Source of the DNA: Candidatus Aquirickettsiella gammari
Lineage (GTDB): Bacteria; Pseudomonadota; Gammaproteobacteria; Diplorickettsiales; Diplorickettsiaceae
Length of the DNA stretch: 64,000 bases
Reading direction: 5' to 3'
Assembly (NCBI GenBank): GCA_002290645.2
Contig: NMOS02000008.1
Coordinates: 1-64,000 of the forward strand
In this document: in pieces, positions 13,640-39,759 of the stretch
Numbering within the stretch: position 1 is the first letter of the stretch
How the letters are laid out: every line of letters begins with the position of its first letter
Program-made: the position numbers and the translations under genes
Notes under the pieces: model-generated
What the model was told of the DNA's origin: nothing
Seen by the model: the letters and a program-made list of their open reading frames with translations, nothing else
The model's database searches: none

Positions 13640-13705
13640 AATTATTATGCTTTTATTTTAACTTATTTTATTCAAAAAAGCACTATAAAATAGCTATTTT
13701 TTATA

Positions 13706-17510: not shown

Positions 17511-17512
17511 TG

Positions 17513-17831: not shown

Positions 17832-18449
17832 AGTGCTTGTAATTTGTACGATGATTTTCTATATTACAGTGATTGGACGATTTTTAGAAAAAACTATTTA
17901 AATTTCCTCTCTCCATTAACCTGTAATAATTTTATGAGCCCATTAGTAAATAAGATTTGGCATTTAGCTAAGAATGAAGAAGAAGCTAAATTAACGGATT
18001 TTGAATTTCAGCTTTGGCGCGTTTTTTATGGATTTACCCGCTGGCAGGAAGGCTGTGAAAAAGTTGCTAATCAAACTGATCTAACAGGAAGTGAACTATC
18101 TATTCTACATATCATTAGAATGAAAGGAAGATCTAAAACTATCAATGAATTATCCCGTTTACTGAATCGAGATGATATCTTTAATGTAAATTACAGCATT
18201 CAAAAGTTGATTAAAAATGGTTTAATCCGAAAGATTTTGAGCGATAAAAATAATAAAAAAGCTTTTTCTTATGAAATTACTGAAGAAGGCATTAAAAATA
18301 CCGATGCCTATACTGCGCTTAGACAAAGTATTTTAATTGAACTTCTTAAGAAGAAAAAAGAATTGGATCTAGAGAAATTTACTGATATGTTGTCAGAACT
18401 TATCGCCATTTATGAAGAAGCAGACCGAACGGTACTGACTTACATGGGA
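17832..18449 (+). repeat. MarR inverted repeat, copy A
   Basis: This stretch is the inverted partner of 22190-22793. Similarity begins at the string AGTGCTTGTAATT about 100 bases upstream of the gene, includes matched promoter DNA (ATGATTTTCTATATTACAGT and CTGTAATAATTTTATGA), and continues through the coding region until about the codon for the final Thr-Tyr. The proteins differ at roughly a dozen of 170 positions. The unit was therefore duplicated with its own promoter, as one edge of a cassette. Confidence 0.9.
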
Positions 18450-18488
18450 GATAAGCCAGAAGTAAGCAAAAAATTAAAAAAGCAATAA
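17934..18488 (+). CDS. MarR-type winged-helix regulator, copy A
   Basis: A 184-residue protein from ATG 17934 (MSPLVNKIWHLAKNEEEAKL); a longer frame to 17844 runs through promoter DNA shared with the second copy. The winged-helix domain (about residues 40-130) has GSELSILHIIRMKGRSKTIN (helices), the recognition helix around NRDDIFNVNYSIQKLIKNGL and the wing ILSDKNNKKAFSYEIT. This is the MarR layout; a C-terminal helical dimerisation arm follows. Copy A has a Lys-rich tail (KPEVSKKLKKQ) that copy B lacks. It probably controls the enclosed oxidase genes or itself through TTACTAGTAA-like sites. Confidence 0.8.
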   Translation: MSPLVNKIWHLAKNEEEAKLTDFEFQLWRVFYGFTRWQEGCEKVANQTDLTGSELSILHIIRMKGRSKTINELSRLLNRDDIFNVNYSIQKLIKNGLIRKILSDKNNKKAFSYEITEEGIKNTDAYTALRQSILIELLKKKKELDLEKFTDMLSELIAIYEEADRTVLTYMGDKPEVSKKLKKQ

Positions 18489-21821: not shown

Positions 21822-22183
21822 GAAAATAGCAGTTTACCTGTTTTAGAGAGGTAAGTTAGCCATTCAAAATGCTTTTCTATTCCCTTTTCTAGTTCTTTGC
21901 GAGGGGAGTAATCAATAGGGTTTCCTCTGCCTAGAAGCAGCCAAGTTATAGAGATGTTAAGTGCGATACAATATTGGCTAATGTAATTTGCTCCAATTTT
22001 ATGTCGGCCAATTTCATGAGAATTGTAGGTGCCTAATTTAAAATTAAATTGCTTTACAAACGATAATCGAGAACGATATCCGCGTGCGATACGCGCTATT
22101 TGTAGTCGAGCTGCAATTTCGTAGGTTTCTTTCTGCATCGATAAAAAATAGTTATTTTTGCTCTGAAACTTTTTATTTGCCAT
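21818..22183 (-). CDS. XRE-like helix-turn-helix protein
   Basis: A 121-residue protein. Residues about 17-80 have the helix-turn-helix of phage-repressor/XRE proteins (ETYEIAARLQIARIARGYRS, NSHEIGRHKIGANYISQYCIALN), followed by ITWLLLGRGNP, the usual ending of this domain. The C-terminal 35 residues are unrecognised. It begins inside the end of MarR copy B; a second start at 22138 is possible. Its stop overlaps that of the diiron protein by four bases. It may regulate the cassette together with the MarR proteins. Confidence 0.75.
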   Translation of the reverse strand: MANKKFQSKNNYFLSMQKETYEIAARLQIARIARGYRSRLSFVKQFNFKLGTYNSHEIGRHKIGANYISQYCIALNISITWLLLGRGNPIDYSPRKELEKGIEKHFEWLTYLSKTGKLLFS

Positions 22184-22694
22184 AGTAAGCTAGCACTGTC
22201 CGATCTGCTTCTTCGTAAATGGCGATAAGTTCTGACAACACATCAGTAAATTTTTCTAGATTCAATTCTTTTTTCTTCTTAAGAAGTTCAATTAAAATAC
22301 TTTGTCTAAGCGCAGTATAGGCATCGGTATTTTTAATGCCTTCTTCAGTAATTTCATAAGAAAAAGCTTTTTTATTATTTTTATCGCTCAAAATCTTTCG
22401 GATTAAACCATTTTTAATCAATTTTTGGATGCTATAATTCACATTAAAATTATCGTCTCGATTCAATAAACGGGTTAATTCGTTGATAGTTTTAGATCTA
22501 TCTTTCATCCGAATGATATGTAGAAGAGATAATTCACTTCCTGTTAGATCAGTTTGATTAGCAACTTTTTCACAGCCTTCCTGCCAGCGGGTAAATCCAT
22601 AAAAAACCCTCCATAGTTGGAATTCAAAATCCGTTAATTTAGTTTCTTCTTCATTTTTTGCTAAATGCCAGGTCTTATTTACTAAATTGTTCAT
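22173..22694 (-). CDS. MarR-type winged-helix regulator, copy B
   Basis: A 173-residue protein about 93% identical to copy A (17934-18488) and encoded on the opposite strand. The two differ at scattered sites and at the C-terminus: copy B ends AYYGK, where the duplicated unit stops and the XRE-like gene begins, while copy A runs on with a Lys-rich tail. Both copies keep the winged helix and look intact, so two regulators with the same DNA specificity are probably made, possibly as heterodimers. Confidence 0.8.
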   Translation of the reverse strand: MNNLVNKTWHLAKNEEETKLTDFEFQLWRVFYGFTRWQEGCEKVANQTDLTGSELSLLHIIRMKDRSKTINELTRLLNRDDNFNVNYSIQKLIKNGLIRKILSDKNNKKAFSYEITEEGIKNTDAYTALRQSILIELLKKKKELNLEKFTDVLSELIAIYEEADRTVLAYYGK

Positions 22695-24746: not shown

Positions 24747-25295
24747 TTATCGAATTAATCTAGATAGCGAGTTGATGTAAGTCTCTACAGCACCTAATGA
24801 AGTCAGTCTAATATTATTGAGGTTATAATTATTTAATAAATCTAAAATTTTAGGTTTAGTTTTAAATTTAAATAAAACTATTAATTTAATCAAATGCCAT
24901 TCTATATGAAATTTAGGTCGGTAATTTTTATCAAATTTTATTTTTTTTGGAAGTGTAGATTTTTCACCAAAAAATCTTTTAATAGATCGCAACAAGAATC
25001 TCCATAAGCATAAGGATACTGGAATATCTAAATAAATAACTAAATTTGCATATGAAGCCCGGATTTCTAATGTTTTGAAATGGTTACCATCAATGATCCA
25101 AGATGATGAAGAACATAATTTATGAAGGATTGAAACCATTTTATCTGAACTAACTCTTATCCAATTAGTCCCCCAATATAAATCATCTAGATGATACAAT
25201 GGGACATGGAGAATATTAGCCAATTTTTTTGCAAAAATCGTCTTACCAGATCCAGGAGAACCAATTACTAATATTCTCAGATTATCTATATTCAT
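24747..25295 (-). CDS. Small P-loop kinase (FlaR/adenylate-kinase-like)
   Basis: A 182-residue kinase with Walker A GSPGSGKT at residues 12-19, a LYHLDDLYW substrate segment and WIIDGNHF, the pattern of FlaR/topology-modulation and adenylate-kinase-like proteins. The polyoxin/nikkomycin pathways use a kinase that phosphorylates the nucleoside 2'-OH and a phosphatase that removes it at the end (cryptic phosphorylation). Here a kinase, a 2OG oxygenase and a phosphatase are adjacent, so this protein is the best candidate for that step. Self-resistance by phosphorylation is the alternative. Confidence 0.75.
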   Translation of the reverse strand: MNIDNLRILVIGSPGSGKTIFAKKLANILHVPLYHLDDLYWGTNWIRVSSDKMVSILHKLCSSSSWIIDGNHFKTLEIRASYANLVIYLDIPVSLCLWRFLLRSIKRFFGEKSTLPKKIKFDKNYRPKFHIEWHLIKLIVLFKFKTKPKILDLLNNYNLNNIRLTSLGAVETYINSLSRLIR

Positions 25296-25314
25296 ATTCT
25301 GATTAAAATACTAA

Positions 25315-25971
25315 TTATATTTCTTCAATAATTCTACCAGGAGCTATTGTGCGATCTATTTCATTCCAAAATGCAACTTGAATAACGACACGCTCTTTTT
25401 CGGCAGCTAAAACAGGGCATACTTTGTGCCAAGAAATATCGGATCTTACAAAAGCAACAGATTGAGCTATAGTTGGCAAAAATACTTCAAGAATCTCTTG
25501 AGCATCATTTAAAAAATATAACATCCCTCCCCATGTTCGTTCCCAACTGTCATTCAAGAAAATCATATGCGTTGCACGCACGGAGGGTTTATCAGTATGC
25601 GCAGAAATATAATCATTAAGCTTATAGCGTTTTAAAGTGATTTCCATATAACAATTTACTAAATCTTCATCTAATAAAGAAGATAATGCTTCTCTATATT
25701 GCTTACCCTGAAGTTCAAGAATTAGATTATTCCAATCTATGCTAATATTTGGATTTACTAAAGTTGTTTGTCCTAATTCAACTAATATATTATTAACAAC
25801 GTTATAGATCTTATCACTACCATTTTTTCTTAAGGATCTATAGTTTCCTTCTAAGGGTAATGTTTCTAAAAGTTTTGCTGCATGAATATCAGATAAAATA
25901 CTTTCAATTTTCGTATATTTAAATGGAGTTGAAATTAGTTTTGACGATCTTAATTTTTCAATATCTATCAT
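25315..25971 (-). CDS. 2-oxoglutarate/Fe(II)-dependent oxygenase
   Basis: A 218-residue protein of the prolyl-4-hydroxylase-like fold. The iron triad is H125-x-D127 (ISAHTDKPS) and H182 (DISWHKVCPV), and R194 (RVVIQVAF) is placed to bind 2-oxoglutarate. The TWGGMLYFLND block is typical of this fold. The protein at 34239-34862 is a paralogue with the same layout (WGGYFNLL, CSWHMVTPV). Aminohexuronic-acid nucleoside pathways use two such oxygenases (NikI/PolD and NikM/PolK), one of them for oxidative C-C cleavage, so this pair may play those roles. Confidence 0.85.
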   Translation of the reverse strand: MIDIEKLRSSKLISTPFKYTKIESILSDIHAAKLLETLPLEGNYRSLRKNGSDKIYNVVNNILVELGQTTLVNPNISIDWNNLILELQGKQYREALSSLLDEDLVNCYMEITLKRYKLNDYISAHTDKPSVRATHMIFLNDSWERTWGGMLYFLNDAQEILEVFLPTIAQSVAFVRSDISWHKVCPVLAAEKERVVIQVAFWNEIDRTIAPGRIIEEI

Positions 25972-25986
25972 ATAAAGTCCTTGAAT

Positions 25987-26697
25987 TTAATAATAATATT
26001 GTTTTAAAGCACAAAGCATTTCATCATAAGATTTCCTTTCTAACTCTATATCCTCAAGATATCCCCAAATACTTCCATAAGTATTAAAAATATATTCAAT
26101 CAACAAATTTACTGTATTAGGATGTGGAGTTAATCTTTGCTTGTATGCTTCCTTAGTTAATCCCTTTTCTAACCAATTTTTCTTGAAGTAAGCAATCCCT
26201 TTGTGTAGATATTTCTCACTTTCTATATAATCTGCAATAATATCAATTTTGCTAAATTTCATAGACATAAGTAATATAATCGCTATTATGCCTGTTCTGT
26301 CTTTACCCGCATAGCAAGCGAAGATACAGCCTTTATTAAAAGATAAACTTAAATATTCAAGCAATGCCTTTATTGTTCCTTTATTTAATTCTAATAAACA
26401 TCTGTAAGAATCATAATAATCATAAAAGCTGGGATTGTTTTTAGTTCGAAAATAATGATTATTATCTTCGATAGGAAATGATTTCCAAATTAACCCTGCT
26501 TCGATTAAAGAATCAGGTTTTCCCTTTTTTAATAACTCATCTTTAGTTCTTAAATCAATATAAACGTTGATTGAAAGCTTAGAGACAATTAAATTAATTT
26601 CCAACTCATTGAGTTTAATTAACTCACTACTTCGATATATAAGTCTTCGTTTTTTATTTTTAAGTTTTGCATAAGCCAAGGGTCTAAAATTTATCAT
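25987..26697 (-). CDS. Tyrosine-phosphatase-fold phosphatase (NikL/PolJ-like role)
   Basis: A 236-residue protein from ATG 26697 (MINFRPLAYAKL), inside the end of the TruD-like gene; a longer form to 26721 is less likely. The active-site loop is C128-YAGKD-R134 followed by TG, the CX5R signature of tyrosine-phosphatase-like enzymes (PF13350 type: GKDRTG). It also has the FRPL...IYRSSEL start and the DLRTKDE segment of that family. In nikkomycin and polyoxin a phosphatase annotated as tyrosine-phosphatase-like (NikL/PolJ) dephosphorylates a pathway intermediate, which suits its place here. Confidence 0.82.
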   Translation of the reverse strand: MINFRPLAYAKLKNKKRRLIYRSSELIKLNELEINLIVSKLSINVYIDLRTKDELLKKGKPDSLIEAGLIWKSFPIEDNNHYFRTKNNPSFYDYYDSYRCLLELNKGTIKALLEYLSLSFNKGCIFACYAGKDRTGIIAIILLMSMKFSKIDIIADYIESEKYLHKGIAYFKKNWLEKGLTKEAYKQRLTPHPNTVNLLIEYIFNTYGSIWGYLEDIELERKSYDEMLCALKQYYY

Positions 26698-27733
26698 TAG
26701 TATTTTCTTCAAAAGAAACAAACTTTTCCATAAGTTGAGCTAACGCTATAGTTGCATAGCAACCACTTGGCAAGAAGAAAGAAAAATCACAACAATATTT
26801 ATTTGGATTTAATAAATCGTCGAAAGTTTCTTCAACTTTAATTTTAGTTTGGATAACAGTATTTCTAGCATGAGATACATTTTTAAATTGATCATTTTCA
26901 AAGAGAACGCGAATATTAGTAGTTTGAGGATAATTCTTTAAAAGATTCAATATATCGTTATTATTAAACAGAAACTTGTACTCTATGGTATCTATGATTT
27001 TTACTGATTCGTACAATTTCATTTTCTGAATATAACGATTTACTTCTATATTCCACAAATATGAAAAATAAGCAGATTGAAAAAAGGCTTGTGTTCTTTT
27101 ATCTAAATCTTGAAAAAATTTGTCAGCATTACCTTGGAAATTCTTGGCTATGGTGCTTAATTCACTTTTTTGTTGAATCAGTTCAGAAAGAGCCACTTCA
27201 TAATCATTTTCTATTAGAGCTTTTCCAATTAAATGTGTATTTTTAACCTGTCCTGGCAATCCAAAACGTTGACTTCCATAATAATTTATAAAAAATAAAA
27301 CATATTCCTTATGCTCTAAAATTTTATTAATAGCTAATGATGTTAGATTTCTAATTGTTACATGAAAACAATTACCTATCAAATTAGAGATTTTTAATGG
27401 TTTTTCCCCTTTTCCTAAATATCTTACATTAATAAATTTTTCATCTATTTTTTTTTCATTAAATTTTTTGAAGTAACTATCATTAAAATAGCGAGGTAAA
27501 GAAATATACTGTGAAGTTATTCCATCTTCATCTTTAAGCCCAGAATAGCAAATATCAGCTTCAGGAAGACCTGTATATTTTGCAATATTTTTAACAGCTT
27601 CAAAAGTTGTGTACCCTAATTTATTTACAGTATAATAATGATAAACTCCGGTATTCGTTGGTGACCAGATCAAATTCATTACTTCAAATACTTGAAAATC
27701 CGCAGGAGTTTGCTTTACCCGATAATCAACCAT
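26684..27733 (-). CDS. TruD-like pseudouridine synthase, probably dedicated to C-nucleoside supply
   Basis: A 349-residue protein with both TruD hallmarks: the catalytic Asp68 in GLKDEDGITSQ and the motif YYGSQRFG at 151-158. Length matches E. coli TruD. It lies in a run of nucleoside-biosynthesis genes with overlaps on both sides, not in its usual housekeeping context. In malayamycin biosynthesis a TruD-like enzyme (MalD) is the main source of 5'-pseudouridine monophosphate, from which a NikO homologue builds the C-nucleoside. I infer the same use here. A second, housekeeping truD elsewhere in the genome would support this. Confidence 0.85.
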   Translation of the reverse strand: MVDYRVKQTPADFQVFEVMNLIWSPTNTGVYHYYTVNKLGYTTFEAVKNIAKYTGLPEADICYSGLKDEDGITSQYISLPRYFNDSYFKKFNEKKIDEKFINVRYLGKGEKPLKISNLIGNCFHVTIRNLTSLAINKILEHKEYVLFFINYYGSQRFGLPGQVKNTHLIGKALIENDYEVALSELIQQKSELSTIAKNFQGNADKFFQDLDKRTQAFFQSAYFSYLWNIEVNRYIQKMKLYESVKIIDTIEYKFLFNNNDILNLLKNYPQTTNIRVLFENDQFKNVSHARNTVIQTKIKVEETFDDLLNPNKYCCDFSFFLPSGCYATIALAQLMEKFVSFEENTNDKF

Positions 27734-27738
27734 ACCTT

Positions 27739-29346
27739 TTAGTCCTTATTAGTTTTCTTAACTATCCACTCTCTTTTACCAAATGGCATCTCTGCATCCA
27801 TTGAAAATTCCGAACATTTTTTCAATAAGTTTTTTGCCTCTATGAGTTGAGTTGAATCTTTAGAGTATTCTAATCCCATTATATGATGCAACCATGGTTC
27901 TTGTCCCATAGCATAGACTACGACTTTAGTACATTGAATAGCAGTTATGATTTGCCATACTTTCTCTGCATTCGAACCACTTAACCGCCTTGATTGATCA
28001 TCTTCACGTTTAATAGGTTTATGAAATAGAGCGCCATATGCCCAACTAAATGGCGCTCCCACACATTCCATTCCAATAAACAGCATATTAACAGGACCTA
28101 TCATTGCCATTAGCATATGATAGAGATTTATATCAAGATTATTTGAATCTACAGCAAATAAAAAAGATTTATCATAAATTTTAATATGATAGGCCAGTTT
28201 AGTTTGTATATTTAAATCACCATGCTCACCTAAAAAAGGAACTCCTGTAATTTCTATTTCATTTGTAGTAATTTTCTCCATTTCTTTTAAAGTTATAATA
28301 GATTGAAAACCAATATGTTTAAGTATATATTCAAGCCCTGGATCGGCTATAAAACCAGAGTTGTTGTCTGGCACAACAATGTATCTAACCTGGTGTCTAA
28401 TCTGCAACAAAGTTTCTAATGAAAAATGGTCTTGATGACTATGAGTAATTAAAACATAATCTATAAAGTTTGGTAGATCTAAGAAAGTAAAGCGTTCATC
28501 TCCTTTGTCATATGCAATCAAGGGATCAATCAATAATGAAATATTTTTTGTCTCAATAAGAACGCAAGCATGGCCAAAGTACCTTACCTTTATATCCTCC
28601 CCATTATATTTTTGATTAAAAGAAGAAGGGGGAATATTATTAAATAAGGCTTCAAAATTTTCGTTACATTTTGCAGATAAATTTAAATTTTGTCGAAGCT
28701 CATTTAAAGAAACTCCATGACGTCTTGATCTACATAATAAATCTATTACAGAATCGTCAAATGAAACCTGCAAATGTACATCTTTAGGATTTGGAAAACG
28801 TGGTGTACTTAGAATAAAGGATCTTTTATCAGACTCCAAAGGTGACAATAAAATAGTTTGTGAACTTTTATCATAATATTTATGGTAAATAAAACTTTCT
28901 ATAAATCTAATGCTGGGGTTATGATTCATATCATATACAAGCTCAACACATCCAGCTAAAAATTTAGGTATTTTGAAGTATATTTGTTCTAATGAATTTC
29001 CGGTGGCTGTTTGTTCAAGAAGCAGATTTAAACCATCTATTGCTTCTGATAACTGAATTAAGTCCTGTCTATTCTCTAATATTTGAGAATATAAGTTTTT
29101 AACATCAACTACTGTGTGGTTACTTAAATTTACAAATGCGCCTCCGCTGAGCTGCTTTTCTGCGCTTGCCTGTTGATGCAATTCAGGATAGGTAATAAAT
29201 GAGCGCAAAATTTTTAAAAAGCGCTTATTCAAGATTAAACCGGCTGTAGTAGGAGAAACCAAATGTGCAGAAGCATACCAACTACATACTAATGGCTCAA
29301 AACAAATAGACGGTTTTAACCAGTATTTTTCCATCGATTTTATCAC
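27739..29346 (-). CDS. MBL-fold metallohydrolase with a long N-terminal domain
   Basis: A 535-residue protein. The C-terminal half is a UlaG-like metallo-beta-lactamase fold with ligand motif HSHQDH at 302-307 (preceded by KVRYFGHACVLIE and LLIDPLIAYD) and further ligands in GEHGD and VDSNN. The N-terminal 240 residues start with a conserved block (CFEPLVCSWYASAHLVSPTTAG) seen with MBL proteins in some peptide-synthetase clusters; its function is unknown to me. It may hydrolyse an ester, lactone or phosphoester intermediate. A GTG start at 29346 and an ATG at 29334 are both possible. Confidence 0.75.
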   Translation of the reverse strand: MIKSMEKYWLKPSICFEPLVCSWYASAHLVSPTTAGLILNKRFLKILRSFITYPELHQQASAEKQLSGGAFVNLSNHTVVDVKNLYSQILENRQDLIQLSEAIDGLNLLLEQTATGNSLEQIYFKIPKFLAGCVELVYDMNHNPSIRFIESFIYHKYYDKSSQTILLSPLESDKRSFILSTPRFPNPKDVHLQVSFDDSVIDLLCRSRRHGVSLNELRQNLNLSAKCNENFEALFNNIPPSSFNQKYNGEDIKVRYFGHACVLIETKNISLLIDPLIAYDKGDERFTFLDLPNFIDYVLITHSHQDHFSLETLLQIRHQVRYIVVPDNNSGFIADPGLEYILKHIGFQSIITLKEMEKITTNEIEITGVPFLGEHGDLNIQTKLAYHIKIYDKSFLFAVDSNNLDINLYHMLMAMIGPVNMLFIGMECVGAPFSWAYGALFHKPIKREDDQSRRLSGSNAEKVWQIITAIQCTKVVVYAMGQEPWLHHIMGLEYSKDSTQLIEAKNLLKKCSEFSMDAEMPFGKREWIVKKTNKD

Positions 29347-29355
29347 TTTTTACTT

Positions 29356-30663
29356 TTAAACTGTAACTTTTCTTATAGGAATATTCCGGGTAACTGTAGT
29401 TGGCCGATCATGTTTTAAGGCGTAAAAAAGCTTATAATATTTATTCGCAATTTCCGGATTTAAAAAATTTCTAGGGAAATACTGTCGATTAAATTCACCA
29501 ACTTCTTCCAATGACATATCTTCGCGCAAATGTTGAAATGGCGTATAAATTGTAGGCCGTATGCGAGCCCCATGTTTTAAACAAGTATTTATCGTAAATT
29601 CAACGTCTTCAGGGGTATCCCCCGGCAAACCTAAAATAATGAAACAGTTGAGCTCTACATTATATTCCTTGCAAATTGATACAATTTCTTCAAATGCTTG
29701 CAAGATTTCTTGTTTACATTTTGGTAAACCCATTGCAGCTGCTCGAGTAAAAGATTCAATTCCTAAACTAATTCGAACACAACCGCTGGCTGCCATTGCT
29801 TGTACTAGTTTGCGATTTAAACATTTTAATACGGTTATACATTTCCAGGAATAAATTTCATTTTTTTGTGATATTTTTTCACAAAATTCAAAAACCCATT
29901 TATGATTAAGAGTAAAAGTTGGGCAATAAAAAGAAACGTATTCAAACGGCTGCTTATTAAATGCATCAACAATATACTCGACTGTACGATCTACAGATAA
30001 TCTACGCTCTGTCTTTCCTTGCATTGGAGGGACATCACAAAATTCGCACATAAAAGGACAACCTCTACCTAAAGGCACGACCAATTCTTGTCTTTCGGGA
30101 ATACCGCAAAATTTATTTAAATCATTTCTGTACATAAAGTTATAACTTATGTAAGGAATTTCATTTACATCAGGTAATACCCAATCCTTAGATTCCAGAA
30201 ATATTCCCGCCGGAATTTGTTTAACTTCTGGTAGCTTAACGCCGGCAAGTAAATTATCAGTAGACATTAAGTATTTAACGTAAGAAGCCACACCAGACTC
30301 ATAATCTCCGAGAGCATGAATTGCATCTAAATCGAATTGGAGAAAAAAAAGGGGTATTTGTTTACTTAAACGCCCAAAAGTTATGACTTTTGCATTTGGA
30401 CAAAATGTCTTTTTATAATTCATGAATCGTGGAAAAGTATCCACACCATCAAAATCATTCATAAGGACAATCAAATCAAATCCTTTTACTAAAAGATCGC
30501 AAATTTCTTTCCATGTGTAATTCAGTGCTGCTGCATCTACGCATTCAACTGAAATATTTGTAATGTTTTCTCTTAAATAACTGGCTACATAATAGAGAGG
30601 AAGATGATGTCCAGCATTAAAATAACTGGGAATATGAGGTGGAATAATACAAAGAATTTTCAT
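29356..30663 (-). CDS. Radical SAM enzyme with cobalamin-binding-like N-terminal domain (NikJ/PolH-like role)
   Basis: A 435-residue protein. The cluster motif is C202-PFM-C206-EF-C209, the standard CxxxCxxC of radical SAM enzymes, within VVPLGRGCPFMCEFC. Residues 1-150 form a Rossmann-like domain similar to B12-binding domains, but no DxHxxG motif is visible, so cobalamin may not bind. In peptidyl-nucleoside pathways the radical SAM enzyme (NikJ/PolH) cyclises 3'-enolpyruvyl-UMP to octosyl acid phosphate. This is the only radical SAM gene of the cluster and lies next to the enolpyruvyl transferase. Confidence 0.85.
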   Translation of the reverse strand: MKILCIIPPHIPSYFNAGHHLPLYYVASYLRENITNISVECVDAAALNYTWKEICDLLVKGFDLIVLMNDFDGVDTFPRFMNYKKTFCPNAKVITFGRLSKQIPLFFLQFDLDAIHALGDYESGVASYVKYLMSTDNLLAGVKLPEVKQIPAGIFLESKDWVLPDVNEIPYISYNFMYRNDLNKFCGIPERQELVVPLGRGCPFMCEFCDVPPMQGKTERRLSVDRTVEYIVDAFNKQPFEYVSFYCPTFTLNHKWVFEFCEKISQKNEIYSWKCITVLKCLNRKLVQAMAASGCVRISLGIESFTRAAAMGLPKCKQEILQAFEEIVSICKEYNVELNCFIILGLPGDTPEDVEFTINTCLKHGARIRPTIYTPFQHLREDMSLEEVGEFNRQYFPRNFLNPEIANKYYKLFYALKHDRPTTVTRNIPIRKVTV

Positions 30664-30691
30664 AAATTGTCCCTAATAATCAAGCACACTA

Positions 30692-32074
30692 CTATATACT
30701 TGAATTTGTTATTGACCCGCCCATTTTTTTAAGGTTATGAATAAAATTTACATATCCTCTTTCTAAATGATGATAGTTTTTCAATTTACTTCTTCCTGGA
30801 GCGTCCAAAGCTAATATAGCTAACATAGCTGCCGCACGTAAGTCCGGACAATTTATAATGTCATCGGTTGAACTTAAGGGTGTCGGGTTTATAGTGACGC
30901 GATTTTCGACTTGCTTTAAGTTTACACCGTATTTATTAACTTCTTTCACATAATTAAACCTATCATGCCAAACATGTTCTACCAAATTACTAATAGCGCT
31001 AGCTTTTAGCATAAGTAAAACCAAAAAAGGATGATGATCAGTACAAACACCCGTAGGTGTAATTTCTATATCAACAGCTTGTAATTGTTGTTGAAAATGT
31101 ACAATAACGATATCAGATTCAATTTTGCAAGTAATTCCTATTTTAGCTAATATTTTCAGCTCTGGTTTTAAAATGGGCCAAGTTTTTTTTAAAGTGATAT
31201 TCTTCAAATGCAATATTATCTTATGGTATCCAGCAATCGCTAAATAAGTAATAATTTCTGAAGGATCTGAGATTATAGAATATGTAACGGGATTTTTAGA
31301 GGGAAAATATTCAATTTCAATTCGAGAGTCATCATAAGAAACTTTGTAACCATTGGCCTTTACAAAGTCTAGCAAATCAATTGCTTCAGATTTAAGAAAA
31401 GGATTAAGAATAATCGTTTTTCCTTTTTTAACGGCTAATGCCATGAGGATAGCTGTTTTAGTAGCACCTGAAGTTAAAGGGCCTATTACTTTTTCTTTAT
31501 GATAAGAGTATTCTTGAATATCAATTAAATTAGGAGAAAATATCTCCTCAGCCTCTGCTTTTATTACTTCATTTTGACAGGTAATTTTCCCTCCAAATTT
31601 TCCCATTACATCCAATATGTGTTGAATAGGTCTTACAAAACCTTTTTCCTTATCCCCAATTTGGCAACCACCACTTTTCCCAAAAATAACTTTTTTGAAT
31701 CTAGCTAAGAGTGCTGGAATAAGATACAAGGAACCATGAATTTGTTCACTTAAATAATTTGGAACTTCATAACTTGATATTTTTTTTGTATCGAGTGTTA
31801 ATGTAGAAGAATGATAGGAACACTCGGCGCCTAAATATTTTAATATATCGATCATTAAGTGAGTATCTAGTAAATCTGGAAGATTATGAAGTGTTATAGG
31901 CACATCCGATAAGATAATTGCGGCAGCCATTATCAAATTTGACGAGTGTCTATAGCCAGATATTCTGATACTAATAGGGCAAAGCTTAGATTTTTCAAAG
32001 ATTAAATATTCGGTCTGTGTGGCAAATTTCATTTTCTTTTCCTTAGAATTCAACACAGATAAAATATCTTCCAT
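30692..32074 (-). CDS. MurA/EPSP-synthase-family enolpyruvyl transferase (NikO/MalO-like role)
   Basis: A 460-residue protein of the MurA/AroA fold, with two inverse-barrel halves. The catalytic-loop Cys137 lies in GKSGGCQIGDK, matching the MurA loop GGCxIG, but the following RPVDLH signature is absent and the MurA N-terminal Lys-Asn motif is replaced by GYRHSSN. It is therefore probably not a peptidoglycan MurA. NikO, PolA and MalO are MurA-like enzymes that enolpyruvylate the 3'-OH of UMP or pseudouridine monophosphate. Position between the radical SAM gene and the pyrimidine flavoprotein fits. GGGAGC precedes the start. Confidence 0.85.
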   Translation of the reverse strand: MEDILSVLNSKEKKMKFATQTEYLIFEKSKLCPISIRISGYRHSSNLIMAAAIILSDVPITLHNLPDLLDTHLMIDILKYLGAECSYHSSTLTLDTKKISSYEVPNYLSEQIHGSLYLIPALLARFKKVIFGKSGGCQIGDKEKGFVRPIQHILDVMGKFGGKITCQNEVIKAEAEEIFSPNLIDIQEYSYHKEKVIGPLTSGATKTAILMALAVKKGKTIILNPFLKSEAIDLLDFVKANGYKVSYDDSRIEIEYFPSKNPVTYSIISDPSEIITYLAIAGYHKIILHLKNITLKKTWPILKPELKILAKIGITCKIESDIVIVHFQQQLQAVDIEITPTGVCTDHHPFLVLLMLKASAISNLVEHVWHDRFNYVKEVNKYGVNLKQVENRVTINPTPLSSTDDIINCPDLRAAAMLAILALDAPGRSKLKNYHHLERGYVNFIHNLKKMGGSITNSSI

Positions 32075-32163
32075 TTTAAAATAGCTCCCTAGTTATTTTT
32101 GTATATAATATCAGAGTTTATATTTGTTGCAGAGTTTTTATTAAAATTTAAGGAAATGGATTT

Positions 32164-33375
32164 ATGCATGACTCAAAATTTATGTCATTAAAATCCTCTA
32201 ACGATCGCTTATCTATAAAACTTTTTCACAATAAACTTTCCAGCCCCTTAATAGTTGCTTCTGGTACGCTGATTGAAAAATATGAGGACATTGAACCTTA
32301 TTTGTTAGCAGGTGCTGGAGCAGTCGTACCACGTACAACGCGTTATTACATGGAAAGAAAGACCCACCCCATTCCTCATTTATATCACTATGGCTCAAAA
32401 AAATACCCTATTATGATTAATGCTGAATGGACAGGTGAAGACATTAATTATTGGCGGCCTTATTTAAATTCGATGTCTTTGAATAAAAAAACTATTATGT
32501 CGATTTCAGGTAGAGATCTGAAAGGATGTGTAAAAGTATGTAAAGAACTAGATCAATATGCCGGATGGCCTTACCTAGAAATCAATGTTAGCTGCGCGCA
32601 CAGCAATCATGTACATGGGATGATAACCAGGAATGAAGAGCACATTCGCACGCTCATTACTGAATTAAAGGACGCTAATCTCAAAACTCCGATTGCTTTA
32701 AAGCTTGGCTATTCTGATCATATAGTACATTTAGCAGGTGTAGCAAAAGAAGCCGGCGTAGATGCCATTGTCGCGATCAACACCTTTGGTCCAGTTTTTG
32801 ATTTTAGCATTTCTGAAAATGGGCAGCCTCATCCTGTATTGGGAATTCGTAGCGGCACAGGAGGGTTGTCAGGCGCCCCTCTCTTTAATATTGCATTAAC
32901 TGCTATTGCAGCAATTAAACGCCAAGTGGACATACCAATTATAGGATCAGGTGGAGTTATTACTGCTGAAAACGCTTTGAAAATGATGATGGCAGGTGCT
33001 GATGCAGTACAAATTTATTCGGCGCTTCATGTCAGAGGAATTAATGCACCTACTTATTTCACAGAGCTCAATCACGAGTTGATAAAAAAAATGGATAGAT
33101 ATGGGATAGTCAATATTACCGATATTATTGGTAAAGCTTTATATATTTTGGATCAAAACACCCAGGTAGAAGTGAAGGTGCCAACGCTTAATGAATCTCA
33201 ATGCATAGGGTGTGACTTATGTATAGATATTTGCTTACCTCGAGCTATTACAACTATTGATAGCACAGCAAATAAAGTGGGTCATATCATTCAAATAGAC
33301 AAAAAAATTTGTATTGGTTGCGGGCACTGTGTACCAACTTGCCCTACTACTCCACGAGCACTCAGCTATTCTTAA
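32164..33375 (+). CDS. Dihydropyrimidine-dehydrogenase-like flavoprotein (PreA-like)
   Basis: A 403-residue protein with a TIM-barrel FMN domain (residues about 10-315: LNVSCAHSN-like catalytic Cys loop near INVSCAHSNH, PIALKLGYSD, VAINTFGPV, GGLSGAPL, IIGSGGV) and a C-terminal two-cluster ferredoxin (CIGCDLCIDIC and CIGCGHCVPTC). Length and order match PreA, the catalytic subunit of NAD-dependent dihydropyrimidine dehydrogenase; the partner PreT is absent. It may reduce the uracil ring of the nucleoside to a 5,6-dihydro form or make a precursor. It is divergent from the enolpyruvyl transferase gene. AGGAAATGG is a good ribosome site. Confidence 0.85.
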   Translation: MHDSKFMSLKSSNDRLSIKLFHNKLSSPLIVASGTLIEKYEDIEPYLLAGAGAVVPRTTRYYMERKTHPIPHLYHYGSKKYPIMINAEWTGEDINYWRPYLNSMSLNKKTIMSISGRDLKGCVKVCKELDQYAGWPYLEINVSCAHSNHVHGMITRNEEHIRTLITELKDANLKTPIALKLGYSDHIVHLAGVAKEAGVDAIVAINTFGPVFDFSISENGQPHPVLGIRSGTGGLSGAPLFNIALTAIAAIKRQVDIPIIGSGGVITAENALKMMMAGADAVQIYSALHVRGINAPTYFTELNHELIKKMDRYGIVNITDIIGKALYILDQNTQVEVKVPTLNESQCIGCDLCIDICLPRAITTIDSTANKVGHIIQIDKKICIGCGHCVPTCPTTPRALSYS

Positions 33376-34202
33376 GCGGTTACTTCTAAAGGCACACAAT
33401 GCCCAATATTACTATATTTATTATGGGTAACAGGAAATAATGGTGGGTATTCTCCCATCTCTCTAGCAACTCTCATCGCAGTTATAAGATTCAAAGGATC
33501 TTGAACTAAGCTATAAACCTGCTTTATATCCTCAATAACATAATAAACTCTTTGTAATATATCGGCACGAAAAGGCTCTCTGAAAATATTAACAATATCA
33601 AAGGACTTGTGTATATTTTCTGTATTTTTCAAGCTGTGTAGTGTCTCAGCATATGAAGACATAATACTACTACCATATATTTTTGTACCTGCTTCTGTCT
33701 TAATGAGTCCTGTTTCTGTTGTAAACCAGATCAATCTTGTAATTAAAGGCCTATCTAGCTCACTCAGAGTAAGCGAAAATTTTGCAAATTCTTGCATAAA
33801 ATCTGCATATTCTTGTGATAATAACATGGTACAATGACCAAACAATTCATGAAATATATCAGGATCTTTAGATAAATCCTCTTCGCATTCGGAACGTATA
33901 TTGGTAGCAGATGGAAATTTACGTTCGGCTAACATACTAAAGTATGTATTATATTCAACTAAACCAGACACAGGTACAACTTGCCATTTAGTCGCACTAT
34001 AAATTTTATCTGATACCTCATAAAGTTGTGGAACCCTAGAAACTGGCAAATCAAATTCTTTCAATTTTTTTAAAAAAATTGAAAATGCTTTATCTTGTAT
34101 ATTTGTAAACTGTTTCGTATATAATTTATGCCACATTAAATCATCTTCGGCGCTAAATTTAATAGTTTCTCTCATACAGCTATTTTGAATCATGTGCGAC
34201 AT
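33372..34202 (-). CDS. Pterin-dependent aromatic amino acid hydroxylase (phenylalanine hydroxylase-like)
   Basis: A 276-residue bacterial-type hydroxylase. Iron ligands are H118 and H123 (FHELFGHC) and E163 (WFTTETGL), with the usual spacing. The short single-domain form matches monomeric bacterial enzymes (about 260-300 residues). The pterin-recycling dehydratase is coded at 50021-50359 in the same cluster. It makes Tyr, or, as PacX does in pacidamycin biosynthesis, meta-Tyr for a peptidyl nucleoside. Ring position cannot be read from motifs. GGAGAAGTGAT gives a good start. Confidence 0.9.
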   Translation of the reverse strand: MSHMIQNSCMRETIKFSAEDDLMWHKLYTKQFTNIQDKAFSIFLKKLKEFDLPVSRVPQLYEVSDKIYSATKWQVVPVSGLVEYNTYFSMLAERKFPSATNIRSECEEDLSKDPDIFHELFGHCTMLLSQEYADFMQEFAKFSLTLSELDRPLITRLIWFTTETGLIKTEAGTKIYGSSIMSSYAETLHSLKNTENIHKSFDIVNIFREPFRADILQRVYYVIEDIKQVYSLVQDPLNLITAMRVAREMGEYPPLFPVTHNKYSNIGHCVPLEVTA

Positions 34203-34238
34203 ATCACTTCTCCTAAAATAATTATTTTGACAAAAAAT

Positions 34239-34862
34239 TTATTTAATAAATTCAATTTGCACACTTAATCTAGAAGCTTTAGATATATCAGTAACCGGTG
34301 TCACCATATGCCATGAGCAATCTGTTCTGAAAATTAAAACTGAAAAAGTAACAAGTGGAGGCACAGAAAAATGCACGTCGTGAACATGCTTACTTCCTAA
34401 AAGATTAAAATACCCACCCCAATCTCTTGACCAGAAATCGTTGAAATAAAATATTTGAGTTAAAATTTTATCGCTATTGTCAATATGGGGAGATACCCAG
34501 TCGCCTTTTTCAAATTTATAAAAACTAATATTTATCTCCATTTCCTTTAAATTTACTTTAGTGCTTTCAGAAAGACAATCGATATAGTCTTTAGATAAAA
34601 TAAATTCAGCAAAATTGAACCAAATATTTGCTACATTTTTTTTAGCCGTGTTATTAATCCGGTTTCTTAAAATTATGTCCTGTATCCAAAAAGAATAATG
34701 TTTCTTTGAACCTTCATTTCGCAAGCAGTGTGTAAAACCTTCTTTTGGGTAAACTTGAATTAATTGATCTAGGTAGGGATTATCGATCAAATTAGTCATT
34801 ATCCGACAACAATTGTTATCTCTTTGATAAAACGTATGCTTAAGCGACAAAATATTAATCAT
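34239..34862 (-). CDS. 2-oxoglutarate/Fe(II)-dependent oxygenase (second copy)
   Basis: A 207-residue protein from ATG 34862 (MINILSLKHTF), just after the SDR stop; a longer GTG form to 34892 overlaps the SDR. The iron triad is H126-x-D128 (VSPHIDNSD) and H185 (CSWHMVTPV), and R198 (SRLSVQIEF) would hold 2-oxoglutarate. It is a distant paralogue of 25315-25971 (shared WGG and SWHxVxPV blocks). Its neighbours are the phenylalanine hydroxylase and an SDR, so it may act on the amino acid part, for example beta-hydroxylation, rather than on the nucleoside. Confidence 0.82.
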   Translation of the reverse strand: MINILSLKHTFYQRDNNCCRIMTNLIDNPYLDQLIQVYPKEGFTHCLRNEGSKKHYSFWIQDIILRNRINNTAKKNVANIWFNFAEFILSKDYIDCLSESTKVNLKEMEINISFYKFEKGDWVSPHIDNSDKILTQIFYFNDFWSRDWGGYFNLLGSKHVHDVHFSVPPLVTFSVLIFRTDCSWHMVTPVTDISKASRLSVQIEFIK

Positions 34863-34866
34863 TGTT

Positions 34867-35583
34867 TTATATCGTTTCAGGTAATTTTGCACCTAATTCA
34901 ATTATAGGATTCATATCACCAGATACGGAAGATTTATTTCTTAGATATTGAATTTCCATAAAGGATTTTTCCTGTTGTTTTGCGCTTTTCCAAATAAATC
35001 TAGCTAGATTTTCTGGGTCTAAATATCCATCCATTTCAATATTATTTTCATAATAAAAAGGTGTGCGTAAACCACCGGGATTAACCAATAACACTTTCGA
35101 CCCTATTAAATCACGCGATAATTCATTAGCAAAAGTTCGAGCAAACGTGGACTTAGCTGCGCATAAACTACAATAAACCGCTTCGTGTAAGCGCATTCGC
35201 CAAGAAGAACAGGAAGCAATTACAATTAAATGGTAAGAATTTTTTCTCTGTTTATGTAATTGATGAATTATTTTAACTGGAACTTTATAATGCAAATCGA
35301 ACAAAACATCCAACTCAGATTCTGTGGTTTCTGCAAAGGATTTTTTCAGAAATACGCCAGTGTACCAAACGAGGTAGTTAAAATCTCTATCAAATACAGA
35401 CGGTAGTAAAGGTAACGATATGTCTGTAAAATAATCAGGATTACATGTCTTTAATGATGACACTTCACCGACATTCGGATAAGAGACAAAATGTGTTTCG
35501 GATCGAATGTTATACTCTAAAGAAACTTGTGCAAGCTCAGGCCCTAGACCTCGACTAGCAGAAATTATAATTGCTTTTTCCAT
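34867..35583 (-). CDS. Short-chain dehydrogenase/reductase
   Basis: A 238-residue SDR. The nucleotide motif is ISASRGLGPELA (variant of TGxxxGxG), and the catalytic block is IASCSSWRMRLHEAVYCSLCAAKSTF, where Ser, Tyr and Lys are present as S..(x)n..Y-CSLCAA-K. The NPGGLRTPF segment follows. It starts at the TAATG overlap with the NRPS stop, so it is co-translated. It probably oxidises or reduces a hydroxyl or keto group on the amino acid or nucleoside intermediate. Confidence 0.8.
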   Translation of the reverse strand: MEKAIIISASRGLGPELAQVSLEYNIRSETHFVSYPNVGEVSSLKTCNPDYFTDISLPLLPSVFDRDFNYLVWYTGVFLKKSFAETTESELDVLFDLHYKVPVKIIHQLHKQRKNSYHLIVIASCSSWRMRLHEAVYCSLCAAKSTFARTFANELSRDLIGSKVLLVNPGGLRTPFYYENNIEMDGYLDPENLARFIWKSAKQQEKSFMEIQYLRNKSSVSGDMNPIIELGAKLPETI

Positions 35584-38500
35584 TATATTGCTAACTCACT
35601 CATTCCGATTAACTTTTCAGCTGTTTCAATAAAATTATTTATAAATGTATCAATTTCCATAGCAGTAAAAATACTTTCGCGATATCTGACTTTAAGTATG
35701 ACTTCTTCATTATTATCCGTAATTCTAACTGATAAATGTCGACGTACCTCAGAAGTAGATTTAATAGATAAAGGTATAATATTAAAATTATCATTTTGAT
35801 AAAATTGATTGGTTTTCTCATAGTCAAATAAAACATTAAATAAATCGTTGGCTTTACCTGGTCCAAAAATAATTTGACGATAGATATTTTCAATTGTAAC
35901 AAATGTATGCAATATATTATTTATATTACTAATAGTATGTTTAATTAAATCTTCAAAGTTAATGATTTTTTTAAAATCGACAATTGATAAAAATTGCTCA
36001 CTGAGAGGGCCGATCATATTCGACCAGCGTGAGTTATTTCTTTTTGAAATGTTAATACCTACAGCAAAAAGTTCTTGCTTATATAATAGATACAAACACA
36101 TTTTTAAATTCGATAAATAAAAAACAAAAAAAGTAATACCATGCTCTTTTACAAAAGCTCTAATTTTTTCAATTATGTTCTTTGGGATAGATCGTTCAGT
36201 ATACCCTCCAACTAAATCGTTCCCGTGACTTTCCTTAAAATTTATTAAATAATTTTGGCTTTGCAAAATATTTTTCCAATTTATCAATTGACTTTTATAT
36301 TCTTTTTTCTCTTTTTGTTGTTTTTCATGCTCTATAAATTCAAAAAAAAGAATGTCGTTATTGATTTGCGTTTGATATGAACCTATACAAGCTGACTTGT
36401 AGAATGTTAATAATTTATTTATTATCAATGCGCCGGAAGTTGGATCCGAAATCAGATGGTGTATATATAGGTATATATAAAAACTATTTGACGTGCATTT
36501 AAAAACTGAAAATTTAAATAATGGATCTGTTTCAAAATTTACATTTGCATTATTTAAAATAGCATATTCAGTTTCTAAAACATTATTTCTTTCTTTTGGA
36601 GATAAATGAGATAAATCATGATAATGATAAAAAACATTTTTAATTTTTTCATTAACACATATAGCATGGCTATCAAAATTATCAAAATAAATATTGGCCC
36701 TTAATATAGGTTGATTGTTTATTAATGAAAAAACAGCATGTTCCATCGCGCCAATATTTATCTCATTTTTTACTTCAAACGACATTACTATATTATTTAT
36801 AGAAAGGGATCCTTTTGCCATTCGTAATAACCATAATTGATTATCGCTCAGCGGAGAGCTTATTTTTTTTATAGATGAGGGATACAAAACATTATTAATA
36901 GAACGCTTTTCTATTTTATTTTCTTCAAGAAATTTTTTGAAAGTTATAATGGTCGGATTTTCAAACAATACAGTCACATTTAAATCTAGAAAAAATTTTT
37001 CTTTAATTTTGCCAATAAGCTCAAGTGCACTAAGAGAATCTCCCCCCGCATCAAAAAAATCTTGATCCTCTTTAAACATAGGGTCTCTTAGTGTTTCCCG
37101 CCATAGTTGTATCAAATCTGAATCAAATATATCTGAATTGGCTTTACTCGAGTCTTTATATAAATCACATTCTCGAATAAGATGAGCTAATTTAGGTTTA
37201 TCTACTTTTTGATTAATTGTAAATGGAAGTTCATCTAAAACAATAAAAATGCTTGGAACCATATATTCCGGTAAATTTACTCTCAAAATACTTTTTAACT
37301 TTTCGACTATATTCTCTTTTGTATCTTTACCTACAATAAATGCCACTAATTTATCATAAGTTTGTTCTTTTTCGGTTCCAATGACACATACATCATTAAC
37401 TAATGCCGATTTTAATATATGGTGCTCAATCTCTATAGGTTCAATACGATAACCTCTTAATTTTATTTGATCATCCGTGCGACCCATAAATACCAGATTG
37501 CCATCATTTAATTTTTTAGCAAGATCACCTGTTTTATATAAGCGAATATTTTCAGTATTAATTACTACATTAGTAAATTTTTTCTCGGTTAATTCAGAAT
37601 TATTAAGATAACCTCGACCTATCCCTTCCCCAGCTATATATAGATTACCTGTCCGCTCAAATCCTACTTCTCTCATTTTGTTATCTAATATAAAAGCCTG
37701 CATATTTTTAATTGGTTTACCAATAGGTATTATGCTTAACGAATTTATATTTACTTTTTTTGAAAGCCAATAAGTGATATGTATACTGGCTTCTGTTGGT
37801 CCATATACATTGCACAATTCTAACTGGGGTAATCGATTTTTCATGTTGAGCAGATCAGATAACCTCCATGATTCTCCCCCACCTATTATAAGCTCTAAAC
37901 TCCTGCATTCACTGAATTTATCCTGACTAAGTAACATCCTGAATAGAGTTGGTCCTGCGTGAAAAATTCGAAATTTATTAGCAATAATAGCATCACATAT
38001 TTTAGCCGGATCTTTTTCTTTATTCGATAAGATGACACTTCCACCTACTGACAATGGCCAAAAAATCATCCAGACTGAAGGATCAAAACCTAAAGAAGTA
38101 TTTAATAGAAACTTATCAAAAGACTGTAATGAAAAAATATCTTCCATTTGGCTGAGAGTATTATAAACATTGCGATGCTCAATCATTACACCTTTAGGCA
38201 ATCCGGTTGACCCTGAAGTGTAAATAACATATGCAAGATCCGTATTGGTTATATAAACTGTTGGATTTTTTTTAGAGTAATTTTGAAAAATTTTTTCGGA
38301 AATACTAATAATGGAAATTTTTAAATGCGAATACTTTGTTTGTAGTAATTCATCGTCAGTAAGGACAATAGTGATCCCTGCATCTTGAATCATAAAACTT
38401 AGTCTATCGGCAGGATGCTCTGGGTCGAGTGGCAAGTAAGCACATCCTGCTTTTAGTACTGCAATGACTGAGATTATTTGTTCAATTCCAGTCTTAAAAA

Positions 38501-38687
38501 AAATACCGACTATGAAATCAGAGCTCGGTTTAGCTCCTTGTGCTATTAAGAAATGAGCTAACTGGTTAGCTCTCTCATTAAGATCTTTATAGTTAATAAT
38601 CTTAAGATCAAACTCTAAAGCAGTCAAAGTTGGATATAGGAGAGCACTTGATTCAAAACTGGAATGCAATAATTTACTTTGCATCAT
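35583..38687 (-). CDS. Single-module NRPS: adenylation, carrier and condensation domains
   Basis: A 1034-residue synthetase. The adenylation domain (about 1-500) has YTSGSTGLPKG near 156-166, NVYGPTEA, YKTGDLA and the last Lys in INQKVDK (K494). The carrier domain has DFFDAGGDSL with Ser551 for the phosphopantetheine arm. The condensation domain (about 605-1030) has HHLISD (H743, H744, D748). The by-eye substrate code is D-P-W-T-I-G-V-I-H-K, nearest to threonine-type codes but not diagnostic. The A-PCP-C order with no thioesterase suggests transfer of the loaded amino acid to a soluble amine such as the nucleoside. It overlaps the aldo/keto reductase gene by 14 bases. Confidence 0.92.
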   Translation of the reverse strand: MMQSKLLHSSFESSALLYPTLTALEFDLKIINYKDLNERANQLAHFLIAQGAKPSSDFIVGIFFKTGIEQIISVIAVLKAGCAYLPLDPEHPADRLSFMIQDAGITIVLTDDELLQTKYSHLKISIISISEKIFQNYSKKNPTVYITNTDLAYVIYTSGSTGLPKGVMIEHRNVYNTLSQMEDIFSLQSFDKFLLNTSLGFDPSVWMIFWPLSVGGSVILSNKEKDPAKICDAIIANKFRIFHAGPTLFRMLLSQDKFSECRSLELIIGGGESWRLSDLLNMKNRLPQLELCNVYGPTEASIHITYWLSKKVNINSLSIIPIGKPIKNMQAFILDNKMREVGFERTGNLYIAGEGIGRGYLNNSELTEKKFTNVVINTENIRLYKTGDLAKKLNDGNLVFMGRTDDQIKLRGYRIEPIEIEHHILKSALVNDVCVIGTEKEQTYDKLVAFIVGKDTKENIVEKLKSILRVNLPEYMVPSIFIVLDELPFTINQKVDKPKLAHLIRECDLYKDSSKANSDIFDSDLIQLWRETLRDPMFKEDQDFFDAGGDSLSALELIGKIKEKFFLDLNVTVLFENPTIITFKKFLEENKIEKRSINNVLYPSSIKKISSPLSDNQLWLLRMAKGSLSINNIVMSFEVKNEINIGAMEHAVFSLINNQPILRANIYFDNFDSHAICVNEKIKNVFYHYHDLSHLSPKERNNVLETEYAILNNANVNFETDPLFKFSVFKCTSNSFYIYLYIHHLISDPTSGALIINKLLTFYKSACIGSYQTQINNDILFFEFIEHEKQQKEKKEYKSQLINWKNILQSQNYLINFKESHGNDLVGGYTERSIPKNIIEKIRAFVKEHGITFFVFYLSNLKMCLYLLYKQELFAVGINISKRNNSRWSNMIGPLSEQFLSIVDFKKIINFEDLIKHTISNINNILHTFVTIENIYRQIIFGPGKANDLFNVLFDYEKTNQFYQNDNFNIIPLSIKSTSEVRRHLSVRITDNNEEVILKVRYRESIFTAMEIDTFINNFIETAEKLIGMSELAI

Positions 38688-39627
38688 TTACCTCAAAAAT
38701 TGTATTAAGCTCATTATCAATTTCTGGAGAAATTTTGTTTTTAAGACCCACAGCAGAAATATTTTCTAATAACTGGTCTTCATTTGAAGCGCCTATAATA
38801 ACTGTACTAACAAATTGTTTGGATAAAATCCAAGCAATAGAAAGCTGAGCCGGTGTCCAGCCCAACTTTTGTGCTAATAATACCAGCCGATTAGCTTTAT
38901 CAATTCGGCTCTGAAAATCGTTTCCTATAAATCTTTTTTCTGATTGTAAACGAGATTTTTCTGGAAACCCTTTACTATATTTGCCTGTTAAAATTCCAGA
39001 AGCTAAGGGACCCCAGGTTGTAAGACCCATTCCATATTTTTGATATAATTTTTTATATTCTTCTTCAACCCGATAGCGATTAAAAAGGTTGTATTCTGAT
39101 TGTTCGGTAGAAGGAGAAATACAATGCATATCTTGTGCAAGCTTATAAGCCATTTCAATCTGACCTGATGACCACTCGGATGTCCCCCAATAAATAGCAT
39201 GACCATCACGAATTATCTTATCCATTGCTAGTATAGTTTCTTCGATTGGAGTTAAAGGATCGGGGCGATGGCAAAAAACAATATCTACATAATCTAATTG
39301 CAAACGTCTTAGGGAATTTTTAATTCCTTCCAATAAATGTTTGCGAGATAAACCTATATCATTAACTCCATCGCCACCCCAATACAGTTTAGTAGTAATA
39401 ACTAAAGATTCACGTTGGTAGGAACGAAATACTTCACCCATCAGACACTCAGCCATTCCCTCAGCATATCGTTCAGCATTATCAAAAAAATTAATTCCTT
39501 TATCAATTGCGATATTAACTATTTTTTTTGCATGCTTGACGCTAAGATGCTTGCTAAAAGTAAGCCAAGGCCCTAATGAAAGCTCACTTACTCGAATTCC
39601 AGCTTTTCCTAATTGTCTATAGTCCAT
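38674..39627 (-). CDS. Aldo/keto reductase
   Basis: A 317-residue NADPH-dependent reductase of the potassium-channel beta-subunit-like branch. The catalytic tetrad is visible: Asp in NFFDNAERYAEG, Tyr in the same segment, Lys in VITTKLYWG and His in VFCHRPDP. The cofactor part near the C-terminus is STVIIGASNEDQLLEN. It is first in the leftward part of the cluster with the NRPS downstream. The substrate is unknown; a sugar-derived aldehyde or ketone of the nucleoside is plausible. Confidence 0.9.
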   Translation of the reverse strand: MDYRQLGKAGIRVSELSLGPWLTFSKHLSVKHAKKIVNIAIDKGINFFDNAERYAEGMAECLMGEVFRSYQRESLVITTKLYWGGDGVNDIGLSRKHLLEGIKNSLRRLQLDYVDIVFCHRPDPLTPIEETILAMDKIIRDGHAIYWGTSEWSSGQIEMAYKLAQDMHCISPSTEQSEYNLFNRYRVEEEYKKLYQKYGMGLTTWGPLASGILTGKYSKGFPEKSRLQSEKRFIGNDFQSRIDKANRLVLLAQKLGWTPAQLSIAWILSKQFVSTVIIGASNEDQLLENISAVGLKNKISPEIDNELNTIFEVNDAK

Positions 39628-39759
39628 AAAAAATGATATTTTTTTTAATTATTTCAGATTAATTACTTGATCCCTACAAATAAGATATTTCATGATCACC
39701 ATAATATTATTATATAATGAATTATCTATTTACCAAAATTAATTATGTAATTTAACCTT

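Follow-up and report, generated by a model that had tools for sequence, protein, structure and literature searches.

Does the TruD-family pseudouridine synthase encoded here modify tRNA, as its annotation would suggest, or does it supply the pseudouridine nucleotide for a nucleoside antibiotic? The question arises from a window of 64,000 nucleotides, the whole stretch of DNA analysed, in which the TruD gene lies among genes that look built for a malayamycin/nikkomycin-type nucleoside antibiotic. The original prediction was that this TruD is a dedicated source of pseudouridine nucleotide and that the product is a C- rather than an N-nucleoside. We consider it quite probable that the locus is an acquired nucleoside-antibiotic cluster with a dedicated biosynthetic TruD, which converts a uridine nucleotide to a pseudouridine nucleotide, the product being a peptidyl C-nucleoside. 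The biosynthetic gene cluster occupies positions 24747-42149 and is given here with further genes to its right:

24747-25295, minus strand: P-loop kinase-like protein (Walker A GSPGSGKT)
25315-25971, minus strand: 2-oxoglutarate/Fe(II) oxygenase 1 (Pfam 6e-10; conserved in sister clusters)
25987-26721, minus strand: tyrosine-phosphatase-type phosphatase (CX5R motif; Pfam Y_phosphatase3 1e-29; homologues in related clusters)
26684-27733, minus strand: TruD-family pseudouridine synthase of the dedicated (cluster) type (349 aa; Pfam TruD 6e-43)
27739-29346, minus strand: CmlA-type diiron beta-hydroxylase (Pfam CmlA_N 8e-74; PDB CmlA 4jo0 1e-105, 8a90 6e-129)
29356-30663, minus strand: radical SAM enzyme (C202xxxC206xxC209; Pfam Radical_SAM 2e-18; Legionella homologue 72% identical)
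30692-32074, minus strand: enolpyruvyl transferase (EPT), NikO-like, 460 aa (PDB NikO 4fqd 8e-61)
32164-33375, plus strand: DHOD/PreA-like flavoprotein (two 4Fe-4S motifs; 65% identical in Legionella cluster)
33372-34202, minus strand: biopterin-dependent aromatic amino acid hydroxylase (Pfam Biopterin_H 3e-35)
34239-34892, minus strand: 2-oxoglutarate/Fe(II) oxygenase 2 (Pfam 5e-8)
34867-35583, minus strand: short-chain dehydrogenase-like protein (Pfam adh_short 2e-6)
35583-38687, minus strand: NRPS, domain order A-T-C (Pfam AMP-binding, PP-binding, Condensation)
38674-39627, minus strand: aldo/keto reductase (Pfam 1e-62; 65% identical in two sister clusters)
39760-40866, plus strand: PLP aminotransferase, class I/II (Pfam 1e-29; homologues in related clusters)
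40866-42149, plus strand: MFS transporter (Pfam 2e-33; homologues in sister clusters)
44785-46368, minus strand: formyltransferase-domain protein (Pfam Formyl_trans_N 5e-18)
46322-47665, minus strand: GrpB-domain protein (Pfam GrpB 4e-40; conserved in related clusters)
50021-50386, minus strand: pterin-4a-carbinolamine dehydratase (Pfam 8e-28; partner of the biopterin hydroxylase)
50436-51200, minus strand: Sfp-type phosphopantetheinyl transferase (PPTase; Pfam ACPS 1e-17)

The minus-strand genes follow the order EPT, radical SAM, CmlA, TruD, phosphatase, 2-oxoglutarate/Fe(II) (2OG) oxygenase and P-loop kinase-like protein, and the ORFs from EPT to phosphatase are all open with their motifs kept. 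The predicted neighbourhood of TruD was borne out. The EPT lies about 3 kb upstream, with the CmlA-type hydroxylase and radical SAM genes in between. The phosphatase ORF, read from its TTG start, overlaps TruD by 38 bp; with the next ATG, which would begin at 26697, as start codon, the overlap would be 14 bp. The TruD and phosphatase genes do not overlap in the Legionella homologue of this locus, so that their order, but not their overlap, is conserved. The P-loop kinase-like gene occurs in every compared cluster but L046 and L034; its protein had no informative match in PDB and is a tentative candidate for cryptic sugar phosphorylation. To the right, the formyltransferase-domain protein probably belongs to the cluster. 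Between cluster genes lies an ORF of 860 aa (42216-44798) whose two halves resemble each other and which has no match in Pfam, and a 560 aa ORF (48066-49748), also with no Pfam match, may belong to the cluster too, since a 24% identical homologue sits inside the Legionella cluster (L036 5843-7348).

The TruD protein has both catalytic motifs read in the ORF by the original prediction, with Asp68 (codon 27530-27532) in GLKD and YYGSQRFG within NYYGSQRFG. Its match to Pfam TruD (PF01142) is over the cut-off (E 6e-43) and covers residues 5-191, the N-terminal half only, and it scores far below all NCBIfam equivalog cut-offs for tRNA pseudouridine(13) synthase. An AlphaFold model built from seven cluster TruDs (mean pLDDT 72, pTM 0.63) matched structures of E. 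coli TruD, archaeal TruD and PUS7 (1si7, 1sb7, 1szw, 1z2z, 5kkp and 7mzv) with Z 12.6-15.2 over model residues about 4-339. Thus, despite the half-length Pfam match, the predicted fold extends across nearly the entire chain, so that the TruD is complete and full-length, and the modelled fold and the motifs alike point to membership in the TruD family.

The phylogeny sets this protein apart from the housekeeping enzymes. In an IQ-TREE analysis (LG+C20, PMSF) of 11 cluster-type and 23 gammaproteobacterial housekeeping TruDs, the former make up one clade with support 100/100, apart from all of the latter; the two groups are separated by a long branch, and, with a sample that is without archaeal TruD, PUS7, MalD and PumJ, the root of the clade is provisional. 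Within the clade, the window TruD and the Legionella copies join at 99/99. Ten of its 11 members come from EPT/radical SAM clusters, and the eleventh (L035), from a Gloeothece plasmid, has neither an EPT nor a radical SAM enzyme annotated nearby. The groups also differ next to the catalytic Asp. All 23 housekeeping TruDs carry Arg or Lys after it, whereas the ten TruDs of the clusters carry Glu (nine) or Ile (one), followed in every case by Asp, so that the signature changes from KD[RK] to KD[EI]D, the window TruD having KDED. In addition, the conserved Arg at window TruD positions 108, 223, 234, 297 and 332 and Glu154 are replaced in the cluster TruDs. These changes would fit a loss of RNA contacts, and, by the basic residue, the arginines and the clade, the protein does not appear to be a housekeeping tRNA pseudouridine(13) synthase. 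Net charge does not differ between cluster and housekeeping TruDs and was rejected as a mark of lost RNA binding. The Gloeothece verrucosa plasmid gene (L035 11980-13038) also encodes a KDED TruD; it stands beside sulfotransferase, glycosyltransferase and ABC transporter genes, with no annotated EPT, and is possibly part of another kind of C-nucleoside cluster.

It had been expected that a dedicated TruD would be accompanied by a second, housekeeping copy, and that a sole truD would speak against dedication. The second copy was not found; the cluster copy is the only truD in the 99.5%-complete genome. Yet the objection presumes that the lineage has a copy of its own, and none of the 15 relatives searched, nine of the same genus and six others of the family, carries truD (three of these six being below 90% complete, at 64, 80 and 89%; the order as sampled amounts to 16 genomes, all of one family). 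The housekeeping truD therefore appears to be missing from the lineage, and counting a sole truD against the idea is misleading, since in relatives without any truD there is no housekeeping copy to expect. The truD gene arrived together with the cluster, and the congeners have neither. In Xenorhabdus, all five genomes with related clusters carry a housekeeping TruD in addition to that of the cluster; the housekeeping copy matches the full Pfam profile, and each pair is split with one member per tree clade. The Legionella MAGs have the cluster copy only, Photorhabdus asymbiotica, whose cluster is without TruD, has the housekeeping copy only, and the Staphylococcus gallinarum genome has no TruD. 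Hence, through its absence from 15 relatives, the separate clade, the residue changes and the second copy in Xenorhabdus, the dedicated nature of the TruD is well supported.

A dedicated TruD might nevertheless act on RNA, be it tRNA or another, with the pathway taking its pseudouridine monophosphate from RNA turnover. The complete TruD fold would be compatible with this, such pseudouridine synthases typically use tRNA (PMC10127198), and tRNA-Glu of the window genome retains U13, so that the classical target exists. As evidence, however, this position was dropped, because U13 is kept in the genome itself and in its truD-less relatives alike. Across the clade, conserved Arg positions are lost and an acidic residue has been swapped in next to the catalytic Asp, which fits, indirectly, a lost RNA surface, and we consider action on RNA unlikely. 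For PumJ of the pseudouridimycin pathway, RNA versus free nucleotide as the substrate was noted as an open question (PMC10127198). The knockout of this TruD-type gene still made some product (PMC7955054), so that such pathways can also draw on pseudouridine from elsewhere.

Having distinguished the enzyme, we would note that its genomic company recurs. When 84,980 species genomes were searched with an alignment of the radical SAM enzyme, 11 loci emerged. Two Legionella MAGs (L036 and L037) have the same order, EPT-radical SAM-CmlA-TruD-phosphatase-2OG-kinase, with identities to the window of 72% for the radical SAM enzyme and 42% for TruD. TruD, radical SAM and EPT are also found together in Pantoea dispersa, five Xenorhabdus species and a Mesorhizobium plasmid, the EPT of the last being split into two ORFs. 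Chance linkage is excluded by these recurrences. After the shared genes, L036 has an ORF (16004-17776) assigned by eye as carbamoyltransferase-like; an NRPS is not present within the Legionella stretch examined.

Other clusters retain the core and dispense with TruD. A MAG of the window's family (G013, the same as L038) has EPT, radical SAM, phosphatase, kinase, oxygenases and NRPS, as well as aldo/keto reductase, biopterin hydroxylase and transporter; no TruD, CmlA or DHOD was found in its cluster and flank, and no TruD in its genome, which is 80% complete. The DHOD/PreA-like gene is thus missing from the TruD-less sister cluster. In Photorhabdus, likewise, the core is present and TruD absent. 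The radical SAM tree places, with strong support, G013 as sister to the window plus Legionella, and the TruD-less Photorhabdus as sister to the TruD-bearing Pantoea. From both sister pairs it follows that the presence of TruD has changed at least twice relative to the core, and the intact cores without it mark TruD as a removable module. NikO-like clusters without TruD are those of the Firmicute Staphylococcus gallinarum (L039), the nematode symbiont Photorhabdus asymbiotica (L046) and the plant-associated R. rhizogenes K84 plasmid (L034).

The EPT is, on sequence, of the NikO type, being nearer to NikO (4fqd, 8e-61) than to the best MurA (2e-40) and additional to the genome's own MurA, a separate gene on another contig. 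Malayamycin biosynthesis has a TruD-like enzyme, and its EPT, MalO, is reported to be almost exclusive for 5'-pseudouridine monophosphate (PMC8724604); by analogy, the window EPT may share this preference. Of the EPT alignment columns, just two (residues 251 and 258 of the window EPT) set the EPTs of TruD-positive clusters apart from those of TruD-negative ones, neither convincingly, and a residue-based selectivity call was rejected for this reason. In the EPT tree, TruD-positive and TruD-negative clusters interleave, with no sorting by TruD presence. This would agree with an EPT that uses UMP and a TruD that acts only afterwards, on an enolpyruvylated or an octosyl intermediate, as would the sister clusters that differ only in TruD (and CmlA and DHOD); the near-exclusive use of 5'-pseudouridine monophosphate by MalO stands against it, and we regard such a late step as improbable. 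That an ordinary tRNA pseudouridine(13) synthase has come to lie in a biosynthetic region by accident would account for a sole truD and for U13 in tRNA-Glu, but is very hard to reconcile with the truD-less relatives, the same company in unrelated genomes, the separate clade and the housekeeping copy of Xenorhabdus.

We therefore return to the dedicated TruD that acts on a nucleotide. The cluster links TruD, EPT, a putative octosyl radical SAM enzyme, phosphatase, 2OG oxygenase and aminotransferase. Judged from the homologous enzymes of malayamycin and polyoxin biosynthesis, TruD would isomerise a uridine nucleotide, with free UMP the most likely substrate, and the EPT would add a 3'-enolpyruvyl group to the resulting pseudouridine nucleotide; the radical SAM enzyme, likely in the role of NikJ/PolH/MalJ, would close the octosyl skeleton; the phosphatase, likely in that of PolJ, would take off the 5'-phosphate; and the oxygenases and aminotransferase would trim the product to an amino sugar acid. 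Finally, the NRPS and the CmlA-type hydroxylase, whose substrate by analogy would be a carrier-bound amino acid, would attach a modified amino acid, possibly aromatic and beta-hydroxylated. Indeed, the combination of NRPS with CmlA-type and biopterin hydroxylases suggests an attached, modified amino acid, much as nikkomycin has an NRPS-attached one. A C-nucleoside product is likely by this analogy, and the MFS transporter likely serves export. The NRPS substrate code, DPWHIGVIHK as read by eye from alignments, was not assignable to an amino acid.

In the primary malayamycin paper (Hong 2019), the TruD-like enzyme is reportedly MalD. A review gives MalD as the carbamoyltransferase of malayamycin (PMC8724604). 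The malayamycin A cluster (Streptomyces malaysiensis and S. chromofuscus) has in common with the window cluster the TruD-like synthase, EPT, radical SAM enzyme, phosphatase, 2OG-Fe oxygenases and aminotransferase (PMC8724604). Unlike it, the window cluster is non-actinobacterial and adds the A-T-C NRPS, the CmlA-type and biopterin hydroxylases and the DHOD-like protein, while no carbamoyltransferase or O-methyltransferase was recognised among the annotated window genes. To nikkomycin and polyoxin (NikO, NikJ, PolA, PolH, PolJ) it is related through its EPT, closest to NikO in PDB, and through the PolH/PolJ-type pair of radical SAM enzyme and phosphatase, for which radical ring closure on 3'-enolpyruvyl-UMP and then dephosphorylation have been demonstrated (PMC5365060); those pathways, however, use UMP and are without TruD. 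Pseudouridimycin likewise has a TruD-type synthase, PumJ, dedicated to an antibiotic cluster (PMC7955054, PMC7835738), but proceeds by a 5'-amino route with amide ligases and no EPT/octosyl chemistry. The best reading is a variant pathway within the malayamycin/nikkomycin family, outside the actinobacteria.

Malayamycin-type C-nucleoside biosynthesis would thus extend beyond actinobacteria, to a bacterium with a 1.5 Mb genome and to Legionella MAGs. We see even prospects for the broader idea that TruD is an interchangeable module, switching octosyl-nucleoside pathways between N- and C-nucleosides, and that this gammaproteobacterium, with its small genome and probable association with a host, makes a peptidyl C-nucleoside not described before, akin to nikkomycin but built on pseudouridine. 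The sister clusters with and without TruD are natural pairs in which the base-isomerisation question is directly testable; if the idea is true, the paired EPTs should differ in using UMP or pseudouridine monophosphate. In addition, KDED versus KD[RK] separates biosynthetic from housekeeping TruDs in the present sample, and the KDED signature could find more C-nucleoside clusters that annotation pipelines call tRNA modification.

As to the genomic setting, the G+C of the cluster is about 0.27-0.36 and that of the left part of the window about 0.37-0.41. In four congeners, ccmF-ccmG-ccmH, which lie to the right of the cluster in the window, are present without the cluster; a tRNA attachment site for the island was looked for and none was found. 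Conjugative type IV secretion-like genes (4833-16037) lie to the left, so the cluster may travel on an integrative element; a megablast of the left part of the window against plasmids gave no match. Two near-identical winged-helix regulator genes in opposite orientation (17844-18488 and 22173-22694) flank a styrene-monooxygenase-like and a haem-oxygenase-like gene. Close homologues of the PPTase, about 61-77% identical, occur in three congeners (L104, L105 and L106, in G007, G006 and G008, respectively). Those of G007 and G008 have very large ORFs resembling PKS/NRPS nearby, and the one in G008 is also close to conjugation-type genes like the ones on the window's left side; the genus may swap biosynthetic clusters.
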